Positions 9,304 to 22,196 of a DNA stretch of 64,000 bases are shown here, piece by piece. A model generated the notes under the pieces. The model was not told where the DNA came from. It made no database searches and was given only the letters and a program-made list of their open reading frames with translations. The position numbers and the translations under genes are program-made. Positions within the stretch are counted from its first letter, which is position 1. Each line of letters begins with the position of its first letter. This DNA is from Gammaproteobacteria bacterium. GTDB lineage: Bacteria; Pseudomonadota; Gammaproteobacteria; Ga0077554; Ga007554. The DNA is taken from assembly GCA_040183005.1 (NCBI GenBank), contig JAMPIW010000007.1, forward strand, positions 862,188 through 926,187, in the 5' to 3' direction.

Positions 9304-11040
9304 TCAATACCTCCAGAAATAGACCGCCTCGGCAATATTGCCACTCCCGGAAAATTGAATGCTGTCACACAGATCCCGCACCAATCCAATACCACGCCCA
9401 CTGGCAATGGTGCCTTCATTCAGAACAAATGACTTCTTCTGGTGGTCGAAACCAGGGCCGCTGTCTTCAACCCTTATGACCAACTTGCCGCCCGTATCGT
9501 ATGGGGCATGGGCAAGATCAATCCTGATCCGGCCCTGTTGCAACGCCGCAAGCCCTCTCGCCCGTAATTGATAATATTCCGCAAAGCCATGCGGGGTTGC
9601 CTTAAGAGCAGAATCCAGGCCCAGCAGTCCGTGATCCAGCGAGTTTGAAAAAAGTTCCGCGATTATTGTGTACAAATGTTCGCGGTGTCCACGCAGCCCC
9701 TGGATCTCCATTAACATATGAATCAACAATGGCAGCGGGTCGAAATTGCGCAGGATATCCGGCCCGAATTCCAGCGTTATTTGCCATTCCATGGCGGAAA
9801 CAGATGACTGCATCACCCTCCCCTGTTCAGCAACATCAAAATGATGCGCAGCCAGTCCGTCACAGGTAAGCTCAATCAAGGTGATATCATCGGAATGACT
9901 CTGATCTCCGATAAAGTTCAGCAACCCGTTGCGAATTCCATTAAACCGGTTTTCGGCGCCCTCGTTACTCAGCAGGAATTGCTCAAGACGGGCTTGCCCG
10001 AACATCTCTCCACGTGGATTCCATGCCTCAATCACCCCGTCCGTATACAAATAAATGGAGTCTCCATTGCTAAACTCGCTGTATTCCAGGGCAGTGTCAA
10101 ACTTGTCGTCCCCCACCACGCCCAAAGGCAGGTGTCTTGATATAAAGCGCTGATGAATGCCCCTGCCGTCGCCAAGCACCAAAACGTCAGGAACGCCACC
10201 ATTCCAGGCAGAGATTTGATGTTCACCAGGGTCCAGATCAAGAAGGCATGCCGCGCAAAACAGGCCCGGAGGAAGGATCATCCTCAACTTACGGTTGATC
10301 TCGGTGACAATCTCCCCGATGGAGAAACCCTTGGCAGTCATACGATAAAAAATATCGGCGACAGGTATGGCGCCTATTGCAGCGGACAATCCATGACCAG
10401 TAAAATCCCCCAGCATCACCCGCATCCCGCCCGAGGGCTTGCGCGCGGCAAGCAACAAATCGCCATTGAACAACGCCATCGGTGACAGCAGATATTTTAT
10501 GCAAGGCTCACTGAGGCTGCTGGAGTGCATAATATTGGAAAATACCTTCTGAGCGACCTCCTGTTCCTTCAGTATCCTGTCTTGGTGGTAAACCAACTCA
10601 TCCCGTTGCAGCTTCACAGTGGAATGCAGTTTACTGGCGCGGGCCAAAGCATCAATTTTTGCCTGAAGGATTACGCGGCTATAGGGTTTCGTGAGGAAGT
10701 CGTCCCCCCCGCACTCCACACACTTGGCAAGCGCCCGCTCATCGTCCAGGGCCGTCAGAAATATCACGGGAACAAAACGTTCTCCAGCACGCTTCTTGAT
10801 CTGCCGCGTCGCCTCATACCCATCCATGCCTGGCATCATGACATCCATCAATACCATGTCAGGCTGCTCCCGCTCAAAAGCAGCTACCGCCTCACCACCA
10901 TCCCTGGCCATAATGGCGTGATGACCAGCACTTGATAAAATCGCTTTAAGCAATAAAAGATTGCTGAGCTCATCATCAACAATCAAAATATTCAGCGAAA
11001 AGCCAGCCACAACATCCTTACCATTGTTGAAAGACAGCAT
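9304..11040 (-). CDS. HsbR/RsbU-like regulator: receiver, PP2C-type phosphatase, HATPase
   Basis: The 578-residue cytoplasmic protein has an N-terminal receiver (ILIVDDE, phospho-acceptor Asp in MVLMDVMMPGMDG, Lys in FLTKPYS), a central SpoIIE/PP2C phosphatase domain (VMLGDFTGHGLSAAIGA, and a second metal Asp in IYLYTDGVIEAW) and a C-terminal GHKL kinase-like domain (ELFSNSLDHGLL, RVEDSGPGFD, GRGIGLVRDLCD). This is the arrangement of Pseudomonas HsbR, which dephosphorylates and phosphorylates the STAS antagonist HsbA. The STAS gene lies 37 bases upstream on the same strand, supporting a partner-switch pair. HsbA is known to bind FlgM in Pseudomonas; flgM is encoded at 50728-51048. Confidence 0.85.
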   Translation of the reverse strand: MLSFNNGKDVVAGFSLNILIVDDELSNLLLLKAILSSAGHHAIMARDGGEAVAAFEREQPDMVLMDVMMPGMDGYEATRQIKKRAGERFVPVIFLTALDDERALAKCVECGGDDFLTKPYSRVILQAKIDALARASKLHSTVKLQRDELVYHQDRILKEQEVAQKVFSNIMHSSSLSEPCIKYLLSPMALFNGDLLLAARKPSGGMRVMLGDFTGHGLSAAIGAIPVADIFYRMTAKGFSIGEIVTEINRKLRMILPPGLFCAACLLDLDPGEHQISAWNGGVPDVLVLGDGRGIHQRFISRHLPLGVVGDDKFDTALEYSEFSNGDSIYLYTDGVIEAWNPRGEMFGQARLEQFLLSNEGAENRFNGIRNGLLNFIGDQSHSDDITLIELTCDGLAAHHFDVAEQGRVMQSSVSAMEWQITLEFGPDILRNFDPLPLLIHMLMEIQGLRGHREHLYTIIAELFSNSLDHGLLGLDSALKATPHGFAEYYQLRARGLAALQQGRIRIDLAHAPYDTGGKLVIRVEDSGPGFDHQKKSFVLNEGTIASGRGIGLVRDLCDSIQFSGSGNIAEAVYFWRY

Positions 11041-11077: not shown

Positions 11078-11383
11078 TCAATCAATATTAAACAGTTTAT
11101 TGAAATTGGCTATTTCAAGGATTTTTTTGATTTCCTTGCTGCTGTTAATTATCCTTATATCGGATGCCTCCCCACCCGCATGATCACGCAACAACAATAG
11201 CATCCCAAGAGCCGAACTATCCATATACTCAGTTCCCTTCATATCGATTACATATTTTTTTATACCATCTCCCGCTTTCTCATAGGCCTGACGAAAATCG
11301 CTGTGAATATTAAAGTCAAACCGTCCGACAACACTCATCGTAACAGTATCGCCATCCGCTGATTTTTGCGCTGTCAATGCCAT
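11078..11383 (-). CDS. STAS-domain anti-sigma factor antagonist (HsbA-like)
   Basis: The 101-residue product is a single STAS domain: GRFDFNIHSDFRQAYE near the N-terminus and YMDSSALGMLLLLRDHA (about residues 53-69) with the usual phosphorylatable Ser in the DSSALG loop. It should cycle between phosphorylated and unphosphorylated forms under control of the HsbR-like protein encoded just downstream. Its target could be FlgM or a diguanylate cyclase, as for Pseudomonas HsbA; this is inference. Confidence 0.88.
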   Translation of the reverse strand: MALTAQKSADGDTVTMSVVGRFDFNIHSDFRQAYEKAGDGIKKYVIDMKGTEYMDSSALGMLLLLRDHAGGEASDIRIINSSKEIKKILEIANFNKLFNID

Positions 11384-11430: not shown

Positions 11431-12639
11431 CTAGAAAAGCTCAATGTCACCAGAATTCATGGAACTCTGGGCTACGGGATTATGTATTTGTTTATCCCAC
11501 TCCTTTCGCATATTAGAGATTTCAGATCTCATTCCTCTCATAAAGAGAATATACTCCATTGCCGTCTCTGCTTTTGTTGCTAAAGTTCTTTTTTCAGCGT
11601 CACTTATGAAGCTTTCAACATTATCAAGCCGAGCCATGATATAACCCATCAATTGTCCGGCGATGTCCTCAAACTGCAATGCCCTTACCGCCATATTGAC
11701 ATCCTCATTGATTTTCTTGGCAACGCCTCCAATATCACCCAGCTTTTGCGACACGATCAAATCCATTTCACCAATTTCACAAAGCATGTCATTGACCCGC
11801 CCTTTGGCCGAAATGGCAATGTTCATATCTCTTTTAGCCACTTCAGCAACAATATCACGCGCATCGCCAATGGTTGACTTCATTTTTTGCGCTTGAAACC
11901 GTATCTGGTCGTTAAATCGGGTGGAATGCTGAGAAAGCTTGCGTACTTCCGACGCCACGACGGCAAATCCGCGGCCTGCCTCACCTGCCCTGGCCGCTTC
12001 AATCGCTGCATTAAGAGCCAGCAAATTGGTTTGGTCGGCGATCATTTTAACATCCGACAACAACGAAAATATCCCATCCATCTCCTGTACTATATCGTCA
12101 ATTTTATAGACAGTCTTTACGCTTTGCTTGCCTGTATCCACAAGAATGTCGATAAGATACTGCAAAACAGAACCCGCTTCGCCAATAAAGTCCTTGATGT
12201 TTACGTTCTTATTTTCCCCATCACCTGACATTCCAGAGGCATTGTCAATCAAAACGCGCACCATGCCCTCCTGCGCCTGCGTTTCGTTATTCAATCCATT
12301 AAAGCTATCGCTCAACTGAACAACCGCATCGCGCACCAGCTCCCGTGATTTATCAAGGTCGCTTCGTATACTCGCAACTTCATCATGAATTAGTAGATTC
12401 ATCTCTCCCAACAAGTGACGCATCTCTTGATCGATGGAATAAATGTCATTTTCATTGCCATTTCCATTAATGTTACTCTTGCTGGAAAATATGGCAAAAG
12501 AAGTCCAAGCCCAGGTCAAAGAAGTTGCTAGTATCAAAAATAACGACAGCCAGACATTAGAGGACAGAAACTGCCCCCCCAGGGATACTACGCTGACAAG
12601 AATGGCCGGCCAGTACATTTTTATGAAATTAATCGCCAT
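11431..12639 (-). CDS. Membrane-anchored chemoreceptor-like protein with CheZ-like DxxxQ motif
   Basis: The 402-residue protein has two closely spaced N-terminal membrane segments (about residues 8-26 and 30-50) and no periplasmic ligand domain. A methyl-accepting hairpin tip is plain ([20 protein letters not shown], then [14 protein letters not shown]). After the signalling core, [20 protein letters not shown] resembles the active-site helix of CheZ, in which Asp and Gln spaced D-x-x-x-Q dephosphorylate CheY-P. The C-terminus is SGDIELF, with no xWxxF pentapeptide for CheR/CheB tethering. A similar SGEVDLF ends CheD, encoded nearby. The gene lies between cheB and the HsbA-like gene. Receptor-like identity is sure; phosphatase function is inference. 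Confidence 0.85.
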
Positions 12640-12660: not shown

Positions 12661-13743
12661 TTACTTAACTAATGAGAAAATCTTTGCGGCAATTTTCTCA
12701 AGGGGCAATATACTATCCACCCCTCCCATTTTTACAGCCTCCCCGGGCATACCCCACACCACGCTGGTCTTTTCATCCTGAGCTATAGTAGGAGATCCGG
12801 CATCGTGCATCTCCTTGAGCCCGCACGCTCCGTCATCGCCCATACCTGTAAGTATCACTCCCACAGCATTGGGGCCGACATTCTGCGCCACGGAACGGAA
12901 CATCACATCGACAGAGGGCCGATGGCGATTAACGGGAGGACCATCGTTTAGTCGGCACACGTAACGGGCGCCATCACGCATCACAAGCAGGTGGCGATTA
13001 CCGGGGGCAATATAGGCGTGGCCTGGGAGAACAATCTGTCCATCCTGCGCCTCGCACACCGTCATTGCCGAAACACTGTCCATGCGTTTGGCAAAGGGCG
13101 CACTGAATGCCTCGGGGATATGCTGGGTAATGACTGTGCCGGGCGAATCGGCGGGCATACGAATCAATACCTCTTTAATCGCCTCCGTTCCACCCGTGGA
13201 GGCGCCAATCGCGATGATGCACTCGGTGGTTTTAAAGTGTTTATTAGGATGCTGCCCGGACAATATCGCATCTGCACTGTATTTTGGCTGTACAGGGGCA
13301 GGTTTGGCAGAACTTTTCTCCAGCGTCCTTACCTTCACGGCCGCGGCCATTTTAACTTTAGCGATTATCTCTTCCGTATAATCGGCAAGGGAATAGGCAA
13401 GATCCGTCTTTGGCTTGGACACAAAGTCGACGGCACCCAGCTCAAGCGCCTGCAGAGTTATATCCGCCCCTTTTTCCGTCAGGGACGACACCATAACGAC
13501 AGGCATGGGATGCAGCCGCATCAGATTACCAAGAAATGTAAGTCCATCCATGCGCGGCATTTCAACGTCTAGCGTTATAACATCAGGATTAAGCTGTTTT
13601 ATCTTCTCCCTGGCGATAAATGGATCTGATGCCGTAGCCACCACTTCTATGGCACGGTCAGAGTTAAGTATTTCCGTCAACATCTTCCGCACCAGAGCCG
13701 AATCATCGACAACCAATACGCGTATTTTACTCATTGCATTCAT
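12661..13743 (-). CDS. cheB: Chemotaxis response regulator protein-glutamate methylesterase CheB
   Basis: The 360-residue protein has an N-terminal receiver ([15 protein letters not shown], acceptor Asp in [14 protein letters not shown]) and a C-terminal methylesterase with the catalytic Ser in [13 protein letters not shown], His in [11 protein letters not shown] and Asp in [11 protein letters not shown]. It removes methyl groups from receptors and may deamidate them. Start at ATG 13743; MSKIRVLVV nine bases in is an alternative. It follows cheD in the operon by 21 bases. Confidence 0.96.
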
Positions 13744-13764: not shown

Positions 13765-14418
13765 TCAGAAAAGATCGACCTCTCCCGACACGGGCTCCAT
13801 CTTCAATTTATCAACATAGGCATTTTCACGCTCGGCTATTGTATTATTATGTATCGCATGCAGCTTCTTGATCATAACCTTTCCTGTCATCGGAAAATAA
13901 AGCACCTTTCGTGGAAAAATGTCGCCAGTATCTTCCCCCGCAAGCCTCAACTCTTCGAGACGAATGTAATTCTTCACAAACTCTATATTGCGCCGGCCCA
14001 CATCCGTCGCATGTGCCAGAATCCTCCCCCCGCCAAATATTTTTACCTCCAGATTATTACGGCTTCCCCCATGCTTAAGGATGGCATTTACAAGATGCTC
14101 CATGGCGTAGTTTCCATACCGCGCAGACTCACTTACCACGCTATTCCCCCAACTATTTGCATCGCCACTTACATTGCCAGGCAACATAAAATGATTCATT
14201 CCACCTATACCAAAGACCGTGTCCCTGATGCAGGCTGAGATGCATGACCCAAGCACCGTGGCGATCATTTCGTTACGCGCCGTTACATAATATTCACCAG
14301 GTAGAATCTTGGCCCCGTAGGCATTCCGGGTTGGGTCCCAGTAGTGATTGATGTGCTCAAAACCGGGCAATACCTCCGGGAACTCATACGCAACACTCTC
14401 AGCTTTCCGGACTCTCAT
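13765..14418 (-). CDS. cheD: Chemoreceptor glutamine deamidase CheD
   Basis: About 217 residues from the ATG at 14418, which has AGGGGCGG just upstream; the longer frame begins at a TTG inside cheR. The catalytic Cys is in TVLGSCISACIRD and the His in GIGGMNHFMLP, the CheD signature. CheD deamidates receptor glutamines. The C-terminal tail MEPVSGEVDLF is noteworthy because a similar tail ends the receptor-like protein at 11431-12639. It lies between cheR and cheB. Confidence 0.95.
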   Translation of the reverse strand: MRVRKAESVAYEFPEVLPGFEHINHYWDPTRNAYGAKILPGEYYVTARNEMIATVLGSCISACIRDTVFGIGGMNHFMLPGNVSGDANSWGNSVVSESARYGNYAMEHLVNAILKHGGSRNNLEVKIFGGGRILAHATDVGRRNIEFVKNYIRLEELRLAGEDTGDIFPRKVLYFPMTGKVMIKKLHAIHNNTIAERENAYVDKLKMEPVSGEVDLF

Positions 14419-14425
14419 ACCGCCC

Positions 14426-15255
14426 CTATTTAACTCTTTTGTATATTGTTTTTCCAAGCAAATCGAAGCGATCCGACACTCTATGCAACGATTCGGAATG
14501 CCCTATAAAGAGATGCCCTGTTATATCAATCAAGTCGGCAAAGCGGTTAAATATCTTCTTTTGCGTCTCCTTATCAAAATAGATAACGACATTCCTGCAA
14601 AAAATGATGTCCAGAGGCCCATGAACTGGCCATTTTTCCATGAGATTTAACTGCTGAAATGTGATCATATCTCGCAACTCAGACGAAACGCGAACCACTC
14701 CATCATTACTCCCCTTTCCTTTCATAAACCATCGTTTTAAGTAGTGCTGTTGCATTCCCTTGACCCTATCTTCGTTATACAGGCCTTCCTGAGCCGTAGC
14801 GAGCACGTTGGAATCAATGTCGGTAGCCAGTATCTTGACATCCCAGTCCCGCGGCACACTTTCCTTGACGACCATCGCTATCGAATAAGGTTCCTCTCCC
14901 GTTGAACACCCGGCGGACCATATACGCAGCCGCCGGGTATGGCCTTTTTTTTTAACAGCTCAGGAAGCACAATAGTTTTCATATGATCAAAATGATGCAT
15001 CTCCCTGAAAAAAGCCGTAAGATTAGTAGTAATGGCGTTAGTGAAATTTATCATTTCCCCTTCATCGCCATCTTGCAGCAATACGCAATAATCTTTAAAA
15101 CTATCCAGGCCGATTTTCCTTAACCTCCTCGACAAGCGGCTGTATACCAGTTCCCTCTTGGATTCCGACAAGGTGATACCCATCCGCTGGTAGGCCAGCT
15201 CACGGAGCCAATTGAAATCCTTGTCGGTGAATATAAATTCCCGCTCTTGTTCCAT
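14426..15255 (-). pseudogene. cheR: Chemotaxis methyltransferase CheR with a frameshift at an A9 tract
   Basis: The N-terminal part from ATG 15255 (MEQEREFIFTDKDFNWLREL, good AAGGAG-type site) gives the all-alpha CheR domain with SRLSRRLRKIGLDSF, then leaves frame after LLKKK at nine consecutive A residues (nine T at 14945-14953 on the given strand). The frame that continues reads RLRIWSAGCSTGEEPYSIA, the SAM-binding core, followed by DIIFCRNVVIYFD to the end at 14426. One extra A would restore a single CheR of about 277 residues. The lesion could be real, a homopolymer sequencing error, or a site of transcriptional slippage or phase variation. An intact second cheR lies at 47923-48810. Confidence 0.88.
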
Positions 15256-15272
15256 TATCCTTATCTCCTTGC

Positions 15273-18200
15273 TTAAAACTCTTCCCACTCACCATCGTCC
15301 TTGCTGGACTTTGGTGATGGGCTGGCCTTCTCGCTGCTGCGTGAGGTTCCGGAAAACCTCTCCCGCGACGATGGCGCCATTCCCTGTCTTCCAGGACTGC
15401 CTTTATTGCTGCTGCCATTCCCGCGTACAGCCGATGCGGTCTTGCCGTTTATGCTTCTTCCCACACTTGCCGAACTTTGGCGAGAGGAATTGGCGATACG
15501 TCTGTCGATCTGCGAGGGTTCCCGTCCCTCTTCACTAATTTTGAAAAACTCCATTAATTGCCCCAGACCCTTCGCCTGCTCATCCATCGCCTCACTGGCC
15601 GCCGCTGCTTCCTCTACCAGGGCGGCATTCTGCTGGGTGACCTCATCCATTTGCATGACGGCCTTGTTAACCTGATCAATGCCAGCCGACTGCTCCTGAC
15701 TGGCCGCTGCAATTTCCGCGATGATATCACTGACCTTTTTCACGGAGCCGACTATTTCGCTGAGTGTCTTGCCTGACGCATCAACCAGACGAGTCCCTTC
15801 ATCGACTTTCTCCACACTGTCCTTGATCAGGCTCTTAATCTCCTTGGCAGCCGTGGCACTGCGCTGCGCCAGATTGCGGACTTCGGCAGCCACCACCGCG
15901 AACCCTCTGCCTTGCTCACCGGCACGCGCCGCTTCGACTGCGGCATTCAACGCCAGAAGATTGGTCTGGAAGGCAATCTCGTCGATGACACCGATGATGT
16001 CGGAAATTTTCTTACTGCTGCTATTGATGGCCCCCATGGCGGAAATCGCGCTACCGACCACTTCGCCGCCCTTTTCGGCCTGCTCTCGCGCATTAGACGC
16101 CAACTGATTGGCCTGGCGGGCATTATCGGCATTTTGTTTTACGGTACTGGTCAGCTCCTCCATGCTGGAGGCGGTCTCTTCCAGCGAAGAGGCCTGCTCC
16201 TCGGTACGCTGACTGAGATCCGTGTTGCCTTGTGCAATTTCCGTGGCCGCCGAGGAAATATTGACAGTCGCCTCACGGATATCACCAACCATCTTGAAGA
16301 GATTATCAATCGAGGTATTGATGCTGTCGCTCAGCTCGGCAAACTCACCCTTGAAATCACCCTCCATCTTCTGGGTCAGATCACCCTCGGCCAACAAGCC
16401 TATTACCCGTGAGCTCTCGCGGACAGGCGATACAATGGTCTCCATAAGCTGATTGATGCTGTCAGCCATCTTCCGTATGGATCCATCATAGCGGGATACA
16501 TCAATACGATTGTCAAGCTTACCTAACAGAGCCGTGTCTATAAGTGTTTGAATCTGGCGCTCGGCATCCTTCTGTTGACTGATATCCGTGGCATATTTGA
16601 CCACTTTGAACGGCTTGCCAGTGAGATCATAGATCGGGTTATAACTGGCCTGAATCCAGACCTCCTTGCCACCCTTGCCAATCCGCATGTACTGCCCGGC
16701 ATCGTATTCACCACGGTTGAGCCTCTCCCAGAAGGCGCGGTATTCAGGACTCTGACGATACCCGGCCTCCACAAACATGCTGTGGTGCTGCCCCTGTATT
16801 TCCTTCAAGGTATACCCCAGCGCATTAAGGAAATTCTCATTCGCCGAGATGATCGTCCCGTCCATATTGAATTCGATTATCGCCTGTGCCTTGCTAATTG
16901 CCGCGATCTGGCCATCATAGTCGGCATTTTTCTCTTCCTTTTGGCGAAGATCGGTTACATCATGCCATTCAAGACAATTCCCGATGTAGCCTCCTTGCAC
17001 ATCACAGAGGGCCGTGACATTGATCCTGAACACTAAAGGCCCTACTTTAATATCGGTCGAGTACGGAAGATTTGCTGGATCACCTAATACTTTTCTCTGA
17101 TGAGCGGGATTTTTATGGAAAATGTCGATACACGTTCCGGCCAACTTACTTACGTTGAATCCAGGATAAAGCGATCTTAATGTCTGCTCGTGTTTCGATA
17201 ACAGGGCTACTGTCGATTCATTCGCATAGGTTATCACCAGATCTCTGTCAATCATCATGATCGGCGTCATGGCACGTTCAACCGCCGACTGGAGCTTGAC
17301 AACCTCACCTTCCTTTTTCCTCAGATCGGTTACATCAGACCACTCCAGACAATTCCCGGTGTACTCTCCGGCGCTATTAATCAAGGCTGTGACATTGATC
17401 CGGAATGTCAACGGACCGACCTTGATATCGGTGAAGTAGGGAAGGTTCCCCGGGTCGCCCAACATCCTCCTCTGGTGAGTGGGATTCTTATGGAAAATGT
17501 CGATACACGTTCCGATCAGATTATTTACGCTGAATCCAGGATAAAGCGATCTTAGCGTCTGTTCGTGTTTCGACAATAGATCCACCGTCGATTCATTCGC
17601 ATAGGTAATCACCAGATCTCTGTCAATCATCATGATTGGCGTCATGGCGCCACCTACCGACGACTGGAGCCTGGCAACCTCGTTTTCATTCTTTCTCAGG
17701 TCAGTCACGTCTGACCATTCCAGGCAGTTTCCGATATACTCCCTGGAATTATCCAGCAATGCCGTCACGTTAATACGGAATGTCAAGGGGCCGACCTTTA
17801 TATCCGTTGAGTAGGGAAGATTGTTCGGATCACTTAACATCTTCCTCTGATGAGAGGGGTTCTTATGAAATATGTCTATACATGTTCCGACGACATTGTC
17901 GACCTTGAATCCAGGATACAATTTACGCAATGTTTCTTCATTTTTTCTTAAAATATTAATAGTGGCTTCATTTGCGTAGGTAATGACCAAATCCCTGTCG
18001 ATCATCATAATCGGCGTCATGGCGCCAGAAACAGCGGACTTCATTTTCATCATCTCATGATCAACGCCAGCATCATGGATATCCTTGGTGGATTGACGAC
18101 CTCTTGTGGACATGCCTTTGTTCTCCTGTGAATATGCCTTCAACATAATGGATGTAACTGTATTTAACGCCCCGGACCAGGCTGCATGAACCTTATCCGT

Positions 18201-18566
18201 CCATGCGTCCCCCGCCACCTCTGCCATGACATCAAGCAAGGTTTCGACTACGGCCTGATAATGCTCTTTCTTTGCCCCATACTTCTGGTGCTTCTTCCCC
18301 AGACCGGACAGAATTTCTCCGAGAGACTCTGGATTTCTTATGTTTTTTACGACAAGGGAAAGTGCCGCTAGCAATTTCCTCTGCTGTTCATGTATCGAGA
18401 TTTTTCCGAACAGAGGTTTTACCTGAGGATATCTTTCAAAGAGTTCTTCGTAGAACCTCTTGACCAGATAATCTCCCTTTGGCGATAGCCTATTAAACGT
18501 CTTTTCAATGATAGAAACATCAAAACCGGCTTTTTCTGGCTCTTCTGAAGTCAGCTTCTTTCTCAT
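15273..18566 (-). CDS. Soluble globin-coupled chemoreceptor with three repeated PAS units plus a fourth PAS
   Basis: The 1,097-residue protein lacks membrane segments. Residues about 15-145 form a globin ([19 protein letters not shown]; candidate proximal His in [11 protein letters not shown]). Residues 177-551 are three near-identical 125-residue PAS units, each with [31 protein letters not shown] and GNCLEW-DVTDLR. Residues about 555-665 are a divergent PAS, 680-760 a HAMP-like linker, and 760-1030 the methyl-accepting domain. The C-terminus is GEWEEF, a canonical xWxxF pentapeptide for CheR/CheB docking. The globin suggests oxygen or gas sensing. The FHKNP histidine and the conserved Trp recall heme-PAS receptors of the Aer2 type, which is inference. 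It sits between the small ORF at 18633 and cheR. Confidence 0.93.
16914..18038 (-). repeat. Three tandem 375-bp repeats encoding PAS units
   Basis: Approximate repeat boundaries are 17664-18038, 17289-17663 and 16914-17288. The second and third units share the longest identical peptide stretches (for example [15 protein letters not shown]), so they appear to be the most recent duplicates. The reading frame is preserved through all three. Confidence 0.85.
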
Positions 18567-18803: not shown

Positions 18804-19319
18804 TCAATTAACTGGTATATCGAGAGGGAGCGCGACAGATGAGTTAAGAAGGTGATCTATATCAAGAATAATCACCATTTTCTCTGATACCGCCGCCAAT
18901 CCTTTTATAAAGTCGACGCTCATCGCCCTGCCAAAATCAGGTGGCTGTTTTATTTCATCCGCCGACACGTTATAAACATCTGAAACGGCATCCACAACAA
19001 TCCCAACCGTCCTGTTACCATCACCACCGACAACCTTAAGAACAATCACCACAGTCGTTGGCCCATACTCGGCGTCTTCCAGACCAAATCGGCTTCTCAA
19101 ATCAACTATGGGAACGATAGTTCCTCTAAGATTGATCACACCCTTAATGTATTCAGGAGTGTTTGGAATGACCGTAGCCTTATTCCACCCTTTTATCTCC
19201 TGCACCCTGAGAATATCTACCCCATACTCTTCTCCGGCCAGCATGAATGTCAGATATTGGTTTGAGTAAACTAGGGACTCATTGGTATATATATGTTGTT
19301 CAAGTTGATTGTTATTCAT
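18804..19319 (-). CDS. cheW: Chemotaxis coupling protein CheW
   Basis: The 171-residue single-domain protein has the CheW pattern: YLTFMLAGEEYGVDILRVQE, GWNKATVIPNTPEYIKGVIN, LRGTIVPIVDLRSRFGL and VGIVVDAVSDVYNV. It links receptors to CheA in the array. It follows cheA by 12 bases in the operon. Confidence 0.96.
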   Translation of the reverse strand: MNNNQLEQHIYTNESLVYSNQYLTFMLAGEEYGVDILRVQEIKGWNKATVIPNTPEYIKGVINLRGTIVPIVDLRSRFGLEDAEYGPTTVVIVLKVVGGDGNRTVGIVVDAVSDVYNVSADEIKQPPDFGRAMSVDFIKGLAAVSEKMVIILDIDHLLNSSVALPLDIPVN

Positions 19320-19331
19320 GGCGCGTTCTCC

Positions 19332-21413
19332 TTATGCTGCCTTGCCATTGGCAATAAATGTAGGTGTCTTTGAGATAGGCAAGCCTGTCTGATGAGACAG
19401 TCGAATTAGACTGGATACATCCATAATCAGGGCCACAGTGCCATCTCCAAGTATGGTAGCCCCCGAAACACCTTCCACACGCTTAAAGTTCGTCTCCAGA
19501 CTCTTGATAACGACTTGCTGCTGATCCAGCAAGTCATCAACTAAAATCCCTGCTTTCTTTCCATCTCCTTCGACAACCACCAAGAGACCGCCATTCAGAT
19601 TCGTGTTTTTTGAGGGGATATTGAATACGTCATAAAGCCTGATGATAGGTATATATTCGTCCCTGATTTTGTACACTTCCGCCTTTCCTGCAATTAAACT
19701 CATATTTTTTTCACTTATCTGTAACGATTCAATGATCGAAACAAGGGGTACGATGTATATCTGATCCCCGGCACTGACCAATTGTCCATCAAGAATCGCC
19801 AGGGTCAGGGGTAGCCTGATAACGAATGAAGTTCCCTTACCCTCTTTCGACACAACCTCTATCTTCCCACCCAGGTCGTGAATATTCCTCTTCACAACAT
19901 CCATTCCGACGCCGCGCCCTGACACATCACTGACTATTTCTGCGGTTGAGAACCCTGGCAAGAATATTAAGTCGTTTATTTGTTCTTCAGACAGTAATTC
20001 ATCTTCCTTGATAAGGCCTCTATCTTTTGCCTTTTTCGTAATTTTCTCCCTATTGAGGCCGCTCCCATCGTCGCTTATTTCTATCATAATGTTTCCACCC
20101 TTATGATAGGCGTTAAGATGGAGCAATCCAGCCGATGGCTTGCCGGCCGCCTTTCTATCGTTAGGCATTTCAATACCATGATCAATGGAGTTGCGCACCA
20201 AATGTACAAGGGGGTCGCCTATCTTCTCCATAACCGTCTTGTCCATCTCTGTGCTTTCCCCAGACATCTTTAACTCAATTTCTTTTCCAAGCTTCTGGCT
20301 AAGATCATGCACCATACGCGGGAATCGATTGAAGGCGAAGCTAATAGGCAGCATCCGAATGCGCATGACGCTTTCCTGAAGCTCCCTAGTATTGCGCTCC
20401 AACTGTGAAAGCCCATCACGCAACATGGCGATCTGACTGTTATCAAAATCCTTTCCTAACTGGGCCAGCATGGATTGAATGATGACTAACTCTCCGACCA
20501 TATTTATCAGATCGTCAACCTTATCTATACTTACTCTAATAGAGCTATTTTCCACCGAACCTGAAGATACCCTCCTTTCGGGAGAAAGTCTCTTTTCTTC
20601 AATTAATGGAAGATCATGAGGGTTATCGTCTTTTGTTTTTTCATCATTAACATGACCAATATTATTATCATTTCTTGCTATTGATTCTTTTTCATACTCG
20701 TGCAGTATTTTTTCTATTTTTAAATCGCACTCGCCATCAACCCAATCGAACACTTCAGATATTTTTTCACTTGAAACATCCGAGTTTATCGATATTCTCC
20801 ATGATAAATAGCATTCTTCAGGATTCATATCGCTGAATCCCGGCATCTTTGACGAATCTACTTTTACTGAAATCTCACCTAAAGAACTTAACTCTCCGAA
20901 CATCCTTACAGGATCGTTCCCTGTTATTAGCATATTCACATACGGAATGAATTCTATATCCCAGCCTTTCCCGCGAGTTTTTTCTACTTTTATATCTTTA
21001 TAATCACATGAACCCCCTTCTTTTTTATCGGAAAGAAGATTTTCTAGTTTTTGTTGTATATCAACCACTCTGGGAGCATCCACAGCAGATCCGTCACGTG
21101 CCGATACAAGCAGATCACGCAGGCAATCTACGGATAGCAACAACAGGTTAACGGCATCTTCCGTTACATTCCTTCGTTGATCCCGCATTTCATCAAGCAA
21201 CGTTTCCATCACGTGAGTAAAACCAGCCACACTGGAAAATCCAAAGGTTGCCGCCCCTCCTTTTATTGAGTGCGCCGCGCGGAATATGGCATTTACCACA
21301 TCGACATCCGCCATACCAACATCAAGATTAAGGAGCCCCGACTCCATAACCCCAAGCCCTTCGAAGCTTTCTTCAAAGAACGTCTGGTGAAATTGAGACA
21401 TATCTATTGACAT
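19332..21413 (-). CDS. cheA: Chemotaxis histidine kinase CheA
   Basis: From the ATG at 21413, four bases after cheY, the protein has 693 residues. P1 carries the phosphorylated His48 (FRAAHSIKGGAATFGF). A P2-like domain follows (GWDIEFIPYVNMLITGNDPV to CYLSWRISI). The P3 dimerisation helices contain VDDLINMVGELVIIQSM. P4 has the N-box HLVRNSIDHGIEMP and G-boxes DDGSGLNREKI and GRGVGMDVVKRNI. P5 is CheW-like and ends near the C-terminus. It phosphorylates CheY and CheB. AT-rich codon use sets this gene apart from the flagellar genes. Confidence 0.97.
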   Translation of the reverse strand: MSIDMSQFHQTFFEESFEGLGVMESGLLNLDVGMADVDVVNAIFRAAHSIKGGAATFGFSSVAGFTHVMETLLDEMRDQRRNVTEDAVNLLLLSVDCLRDLLVSARDGSAVDAPRVVDIQQKLENLLSDKKEGGSCDYKDIKVEKTRGKGWDIEFIPYVNMLITGNDPVRMFGELSSLGEISVKVDSSKMPGFSDMNPEECYLSWRISINSDVSSEKISEVFDWVDGECDLKIEKILHEYEKESIARNDNNIGHVNDEKTKDDNPHDLPLIEEKRLSPERRVSSGSVENSSIRVSIDKVDDLINMVGELVIIQSMLAQLGKDFDNSQIAMLRDGLSQLERNTRELQESVMRIRMLPISFAFNRFPRMVHDLSQKLGKEIELKMSGESTEMDKTVMEKIGDPLVHLVRNSIDHGIEMPNDRKAAGKPSAGLLHLNAYHKGGNIMIEISDDGSGLNREKITKKAKDRGLIKEDELLSEEQINDLIFLPGFSTAEIVSDVSGRGVGMDVVKRNIHDLGGKIEVVSKEGKGTSFVIRLPLTLAILDGQLVSAGDQIYIVPLVSIIESLQISEKNMSLIAGKAEVYKIRDEYIPIIRLYDVFNIPSKNTNLNGGLLVVVEGDGKKAGILVDDLLDQQQVVIKSLETNFKRVEGVSGATILGDGTVALIMDVSSLIRLSHQTGLPISKTPTFIANGKAA

Positions 21414-21417
21414 TGTT

Positions 21418-21780
21418 TTATCCCAAAACTTTCTTGATAGTGGCAATAAGCTGCTCTGGATTAAATGGCTTTACCAACCAGCCGGTGGCCCCTGCCGCTT
21501 TGCCTTCATTCTTTTTATTATCAGCCGACTCCGTAGTCAGCATCAGCATGGGAGTGAACTTGTAGTTTGGAAGGGCTCTTAGTTGTCGAATCAAGGTTAT
21601 TCCGTCCATGTTTGGCATATTCACATCCGTCAAAACAAGATTAACCTTTTCTGTTTGTGCTTTTTTTAAGGCATCTTGCCCATCAACCGCTTCAACAACT
21701 TCAAAACCTGCGCCTTTAAGTGTAAATGACACCATTTGACGCATGGATGCGGAATCATCAACAGCCAGTATCTTTGTCAT
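21418..21780 (-). CDS. cheY: Chemotaxis response regulator CheY
   Basis: The 120-residue stand-alone receiver has the acidic pair ILAVDDS (residues 8-9), acceptor Asp52 in LVLTDVNMPNMDG, switch Thr in MLTTES and Lys in WLVKPFN. It should bind the flagellar switch when phosphorylated by CheA. It is placed directly before cheA; no cheZ follows. Confidence 0.95.
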   Translation of the reverse strand: MTKILAVDDSASMRQMVSFTLKGAGFEVVEAVDGQDALKKAQTEKVNLVLTDVNMPNMDGITLIRQLRALPNYKFTPMLMLTTESADNKKNEGKAAGATGWLVKPFNPEQLIATIKKVLG

Positions 21781-21822
21781 TTCTATTTTTCCTGATTAAA
21801 AGAAGCTTCTTATAATCTATAA

Positions 21823-22116
21823 TCATTTAAGCCTAAGAGCCTCATCAACTCCAATTATCCGCGCTGAAACACGCAATCTTTCGGATGGATTATTCCATGA
21901 AACATCTATTCCTCTGGATGAAGCCTCTTGAAAAAATGAATACAAAACCTGCAATATTGCAGTATCTGCTCTCTCAACATTTTCCGCATCAATTGTGATA
22001 GGAACATTCATTTCCATTGATTTTTTTAATTTTTTGTAGAAATCACCGGCAACTGATATATCCATAATTTCTTCGCAGGATATTTTTTCAATCATTATTG
22101 ATTGGCTGTTATTCAT
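21823..22116 (-). CDS. STAS-domain protein at the head of the chemotaxis operon
   Basis: The 97-residue STAS-like domain has ITIDAENVERADTAILQVLY (about residues 41-60), with Thr in the loop where anti-sigma antagonists have Ser. It is the first gene after the sigma-28 promoter. Small STAS proteins of this type precede cheY-cheA in several chemotaxis clusters. Their role is not settled; scaffold or antagonist are both possible. Confidence 0.8.
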   Translation of the reverse strand: MNNSQSIMIEKISCEEIMDISVAGDFYKKLKKSMEMNVPITIDAENVERADTAILQVLYSFFQEASSRGIDVSWNNPSERLRVSARIIGVDEALRLK

Positions 22117-22196
22117 TATTCCCCCTCTGAATTACCTTTCTAAAACACAGTTTCTTTACATGTTGTTAATATTTGTTAATTAATCATATGCTGTTA

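Follow-up and report, generated by a model that had tools for sequence, protein, structure and literature searches.

The F7-type cluster and its McpA-like receptor

The window, as the whole stretch of 64,000 nucleotides analysed here is called, carries a chemosensory cluster whose genes all lie on the reverse strand, in the order STAS, CheY, CheA, CheW, Aer2-like receptor, CheR, CheD, CheB, McpA-like receptor, STAS, and a regulator combining receiver, SpoIIE and HATPase domains. This arrangement corresponds to that published for F7 systems of stage 1 (STAS, cheY, cheA, cheW, aer2-like, cheR, cheD, cheB, mcpA-like, STAS, serine phosphatase; PMC7184735), although the published order contains two cheW genes and the cluster of the window only one. 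In a Vibrio sp. (L014), the homologue of the McpA-like receptor lies in a cluster with a gene order identical to that of the window. The genes, and the features of the receptor, are as follows.

9304..11040 (-): response regulator with receiver, SpoIIE (PP2C) and HATPase domains; candidate alternative substrate
11078..11383 (-): STAS protein (anti-sigma-factor antagonist-like), neighbour of the receptor
11431..12639 (-): McpA-like membrane chemoreceptor with a CheZ-type DxxxQ module, 402 residues
11434..11451 (-): C-terminal peptide GDIELF of the receptor, residues 397-402, common to CheD
11653..11679 (-): LQFEDIAGQ, residues 321-329, with the proposed catalytic D325 (codon 11665-11667) and Q329 (codon 11653-11655)
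11923..12030 (-): tip of the MCP hairpin, residues 204-239
12301..12327 (-): partner-helix segment, residues 105-113 (A105, L109, S112, F113), conserved in stand-alone proteins too
12490..12612 (-): pair of hydrophobic N-terminal helices predicted at residues 10-50 (10-25 and 29-59 in the structure model)
12661..13743 (-): CheB
13765..14457 (-): CheD, ending in SGEVDLF
14426..15288 (-): CheR, split across two frames
15273..18566 (-): Aer2-like receptor (globin, PAS, HAMP and MCP domains), ending in GEWEEF
18804..19319 (-): CheW
19332..21446 (-): CheA
21421..21795 (-): the cluster's own CheY, candidate substrate
21826..22131 (-): STAS-like protein, the second one here, with which the cluster begins

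The reading frame at 11431-12639 was confirmed as a real gene, with an ATG start. Its product belongs to the MCPs and, among them, to the McpA-like receptors: residues 170-314 match the MCPsignal family (PF00015) with 95 bits (E 5.6e-27), and the protein ends in SGDIELF. A scan with domain models found neither a HAMP domain nor a kinase domain in it. In a single-chain AlphaFold model (pTM 0.42), a helix break is predicted at residue 322, with the catalytic helix beginning at F323.

Receptors at this position of the stage-1 order are known as 'McpA-like' (24H), and include VCA1088/Mlp44 in V. cholerae and PA0180/McpA/CttP in P. aeruginosa. The likeness to the receptor of the window, drawn from the descriptions given in the available text of PMC7184735 and PMC7534058, comprises the gene position, the transmembrane start and the MCP hairpin. 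According to the same text, F7 arrays are unaffected by deletion of the McpA-like receptor and VCA1088 has not been the subject of any experimental report; both proteins are presented there as receptors of an uncategorised class, with no mention in these portions of a DxxxQ module or of a tail shared with CheD. It is also stated, in the part of PMC7184735 consulted, that F7 clusters of stages 1 and 2 contain cheY and lack cheZ, the latter being found only in F6 clusters. The first-pass annotation had remarked that the operon contains no cheZ, which is true of the operon itself, but an ordinary, full CheZ (252 bits, E 7e-75) is encoded on the same contig, 153 kb from the receptor.

Two further genes of the cluster deserve comment. 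The N-terminal globin and the several PAS domains of the Aer2-like receptor (15273-18566, reverse strand) indicate that it is probably a heme-based gas sensor. The gene cheR (14426-15288, reverse strand) is read in two frames, the split falling at an A9 run (TTAAAAAAAAAG). Split and run recur unchanged in two further genomes from this group (L012 around 5417, L013 around 5681), with both halves conserved, which makes a sequencing error less likely; this looks like a conserved transcriptional slippage or -1 ribosomal frameshift.

Similarity of the C-terminal region to CheZ

In CheZ, a glutamine positions the attacking water molecule and an aspartate pairs with the lysine of the receiver (PMC3035606), and both residues are part of the conserved signature A-x-x-F-Q-D-x-x-x-Q (PMC7750401). 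This signature has a counterpart segment in the receptor, where D325 and Q329 align with D143 and Q147 of CheZ. Within 29 F7-type homologues, Q322, F323, D325, Q329, L401 and F402 are invariant. When a second clade is added, giving 41 relatives with identities down to 18%, Q322, F323, D325, Q329 and the terminal F402 are the sole invariant residues outside the tip of the MCP hairpin. The catalytic D-x-x-x-Q and the preceding A-x-x-F-Q element of CheZ are thus both represented, with D325, Q329 and F323 unchanging; the position five residues before the aspartate is A or S, and the one immediately before it is E in the receptor of the window and Q in the second clade.

The spacing of these residues is also fixed. 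The aspartate is exactly 115, and the glutamine exactly 119, residues beyond the asparagine of the hairpin tip in 47 of the 49 members that have a hairpin, an arrangement found in one of 42 other MCPs collected in the same way. This single exception is probably L154 (IQFQDVTRQ, ending in NDIELF), which itself looks like a family member missed by the search pattern. Among the other MCPs that a sequence search located in the genome, F-x-D-x-x-x-Q was absent from all those whose frame was read. The initial reading had regarded a receptor with a built-in phosphatase as an unusual arrangement; what emerges instead is a widespread family, with matches at E below 1e-20 in 69 of the 274 genomes sampled in the class. 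One member (L159:6439-7431, reverse strand), located beside cheB and cheD, has a decayed MCP tip and keeps the DxxxQ motif and the tail.

Profile comparisons with CheZ gave results that depend on the method. Against the Pfam CheZ model (PF04344), the C-terminal fragment of the receptor reached 13 bits, under the cut-off of 30.7, and the full-length protein had no match. The best relative scored E 5e-5, and in the genome search the CheZ model matched relatives at E 1e-4 to 3e-6. Taking into account that unrelated coiled-coil and helical families match members at similar E-values, the Pfam matches alone prove little, and were dropped as proof of CheZ homology; nor should the receptor be filed as CheZ, since it falls below the Pfam threshold.

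With hhalign, and a CheZ profile built from 27 sequences, the C-terminal region aligned with a probability of 97.9% and a score of 79.4 over 107 columns, placing D325 and Q329 on the catalytic D and Q of CheZ. The controls, a reversed CheZ and 60 heptad-block shuffles, reached 26 and at most 45.8, respectively. The similarity extends beyond the motif: masking residues 319-331 left a score of 41.9, and the full cytoplasmic domain scored 164, against no more than 55 for shuffles. The proposal that the segment downstream of the hairpin resembles the active-site helix of CheZ, weak as a single-sequence match, stands on the relatives, with the invariance and alignment of its D and Q, and the comparison with CheZ suggested at that time holds for profile against profile, although not at the PF04344 cut-off.

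The comparison also works in the reverse direction. The C-terminal profile picks up genuine CheZ proteins in genomes (L147, L148, L149 and L151), the first of which ends with the CheZ tail VDDLLSSLGF, while the other three carry FQD[IL]TGQRIS. In a search of 177,635 PDB sequences, its best natural match was E. coli CheZ (1KMI), with D and Q in register and an E-value of 0.012, weak in absolute terms. The entries ranked above it, which were set aside, are designed proteins, namely a coiled coil made by design and Tako8, in the repeats of which AVTSLQFND occurs by chance. In structure searches, the matches are dominated by the MCP fold (including 2CH7) and by generic long helices, CheZ being absent from the lists, an uninformative outcome that is to be expected for long helices.

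D-x-x-x-Q helices that serve receiver dephosphorylation also occur in the DxxxQ-type histidine kinases (HisKA_3), from which the receptor differs in that no kinase domain was found in it. The phosphatases CheC, CheX and FliY do the same job in systems without CheZ, through an unrelated fold and an E/D-x-x-N motif. A comparison of mechanism is given in PMC3035606.

Stand-alone proteins and the shared C-terminal tail

The C-terminal profile also detected proteins of 158-207 residues that have neither the MCP hairpin nor a membrane segment. They are encoded near cheY, are unannotated, and gave no convincing match to Pfam or NCBIfam models.

L145:2866-3339: stand-alone DxxxQ protein (these four measure about 160-205 residues)
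L146:2825-3313: stand-alone DxxxQ protein
L143:3103-3717: stand-alone DxxxQ protein
L144:3398-4018: stand-alone DxxxQ protein

These proteins retain the partner helix (A..L..xF), the LQFxDxxxQ helix and the tail, and a single-chain model (pTM 0.54) predicts a two-helix hairpin followed by a linker and the tail. Compared with CheZ they score 50.1, where shuffles reach no more than 31.0; the score is 101 with the McpA profile and only 16.7 with other MCPs. They occur in 50 of the 80 genera sampled within one family of the same class, where the gene lies directly upstream of cheY-cheA-cheW, the cluster then continuing with cheR, cheD and cheB. A genome examined with this form has a separate cheY-cheZ pair elsewhere (L178), which fits the published stage 3 of F7 systems. 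They constitute a previously unrecognised protein family. Since they keep the module without the receptor, it appears that the receptor part can be dispensed with while the DxxxQ module is retained. A more distant architecture of the same module is seen in a protein of 582 residues (L155:2609-4354, forward strand), with no MCP match, MQFDDITAQ in mid-sequence and the ending GGDIELF.

The tail requires a separate interpretation. The ending of the receptor had been likened to the CheY-binding tail of CheZ; a short conserved tail does exist, and it is carried by the stand-alone proteins too, but it is not specific to CheZ. The CheD of the window ends in SGEVDLF, and CheD ends similarly in most F7-type clusters examined, so SGDIELF was rejected as a CheZ signature. 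Among those reading frames of the first loci fetched to which a role could be assigned, the tail is confined to the receptor and CheD. In these two it varies together: F7-like clusters have ELF or DLF, both proteins of L106 end in TFF, and both of L100 in IELF. Being common to CheD, it points to a cluster-wide docking peptide and is no proof of a CheZ tail. The simplest reading is that of a docking peptide shared for a common partner, for which CheY would be the best candidate.

As the main alternative it is possible, if on balance doubtful, that GDIELF is instead a variant of the pentapeptide that tethers CheR and CheB. The GEWEEF ending of the Aer2-like receptor of the cluster has the same position and length, and shares with it the G, an acidic residue and the terminal F. 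However, CheD bears the same tail and is no methylation substrate, tails of the GDIELF type have I or V where the established peptide has W, and the stand-alone proteins, which are not receptors, bear the tail as well.

Proposed function, alternatives and meaning

Taken together, the invariant catalytic residues, the profile similarity in both directions, the receptor-less versions beside cheY and the gene neighbourhood sustain, and strengthen, the original suggestion that an active site of the CheZ type is built into a receptor, and there is good evidence for a CheZ-like mode of action. We consider it probable that the receptor contains a built-in CheZ-type (DxxxQ) receiver phosphatase module, acting on the CheY of the cluster and possibly on the adjacent SpoIIE-type regulator. 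This McpA-like F7 receptor would be a CheZ-like module into which the MCP signalling hairpin is inserted, the module consisting of a membrane-proximal helix (around F113), a second helix that begins with the LQFxDxxxQ motif, and, after a flexible linker, the short C-terminal docking peptide. The tail would hold a phosphorylated receiver, most likely that of the cluster's own CheY; D325 would pair with the active-site lysine of the receiver, and Q329 would enter its active site and orient the water molecule for attack on the phospho-aspartate, both as in CheZ. The receptor would in this way switch off F7 signalling at the membrane, perhaps controlled by the hairpin. The conserved, CheZ-related anatomy, the association with receiver genes and the stand-alone versions are what the sequences show; catalysis, substrate and control by the receptor part are inferred. 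In the literature searched, subscription papers lying outside it, there is no report of a phosphatase function for McpA-like receptors, nor of the stand-alone proteins.

With CheZ (PF04344; E. coli CheZ 1KMI), the module shares the F-x-D-x-x-x-Q active-site helix, the two-helix build, the linker, the short C-terminal peptide and, in its stand-alone forms, the position next to cheY. In contrast to CheZ, the receptor form has the two halves parted by the MCP hairpin, is membrane-anchored and scores below the Pfam cut-off, and its tail has another sequence, the one common to CheD.

The gene neighbourhood bears on the identity of the substrate, which the first reading had taken to be CheY. Across 61 loci with the module, and with a threshold of 250 bp, cheY is found within this distance and on the same strand in 24, and a STAS gene in 23, usually followed by the SpoIIE regulator. 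In the window, cheY lies 8.8 kb from the receptor, whose immediate neighbours include the STAS and SpoIIE-regulator genes. In the second clade, of which the published F9 receptor VC1394 is likely a member, judged by its described topology, the receptor gene directly adjoins cheY, mostly followed by cheA. CheY has the support of the loci where its gene is close by, but the receiver of the adjacent SpoIIE-type regulator may be the substrate instead. That it would be the main one, the receptor then controlling a partner-switching output through the STAS protein and the PP2C domain, seems unlikely. Such a role would fit the tight triad that receptor, STAS and SpoIIE-regulator genes form in loci of the F7 stage-1 type, the triads with no other che genes nearby in the region retrieved (L077, L084, L087 and L088), and the account of stages 2 and 3 in the available part of PMC7184735, where the three genes move or vanish together. 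Nevertheless, the other clades and the stand-alone proteins adjoin cheY and not a SpoIIE regulator, and five genomes with the receptor but without cheA at the fetched locus still encode an F7-like CheA elsewhere. A CheA related to that of the window was indeed present in all 12 genomes checked, including ones without cheA at the fetched locus, most at 58-60% identity.

If the module were a non-catalytic docking site, its helix and tail would recruit CheY or CheD to the membrane and leave the phosphate in place. The tail, common to CheD and covarying with it, points to recruitment by a common partner, which speaks for this proposal; it is nonetheless quite improbable, being hard to square with the strict invariance of both catalytic residue types at the spacing of CheZ, also in the stand-alone proteins. 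Still less credit can be given to an ordinary chemoreceptor of the HAMP-less class, in which LQFEDIxxQ would be a structural element of the membrane-proximal bundle and would resemble CheZ because both are helical bundles. The dominance of the MCP fold among structure matches speaks for it, coiled coils do yield spurious profile matches, and other MCP hairpins align with CheZ too. Against this, reversed and heptad-shuffled CheZ score far lower, and none of the invariant polar residues in question is part of the signalling hairpin. Moreover, the module exists without any MCP part in the stand-alone proteins, whose score is 50 against CheZ but 17 against other MCPs.

The alignment of hairpins has a further implication. 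Profiles of CheZ (L001, L044-L072) and of generic MCP hairpins align tip to tip with a score of 79.8 (shuffles at most 35.8), which raises the possibility of kinship, with McpA-like proteins as intermediates. We advance only tentatively, as a rather unlikely scenario, that CheZ and the MCP hairpin descend from a common ancestor, with the McpA-like proteins as the link that has survived, soluble CheZ-like enzymes having arisen by loss of the receptor, or the hairpin having been inserted; F7 and F9 systems, which are believed to lack a phosphatase, would then each have one of their own.

F7 systems are ancestral to the chemotaxis machinery of E. coli, yet their stages 1 and 2 have been described with CheY and without CheZ. 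If the phosphatase module proposed here is real, its presence in the McpA-like receptor, or in a small protein that lacks the receptor part and lies beside the F7 cheY, would account for the way in which these systems terminate their signal. Receptors that have no known part in forming arrays would thereby gain a function, and a protein family still without annotation would be added to those known. In sum, a receptor bearing the catalytic signature of CheZ, together with dozens of relatives that include small, receptor-less versions, suggests how chemosensory systems considered phosphatase-less may switch off their signal.
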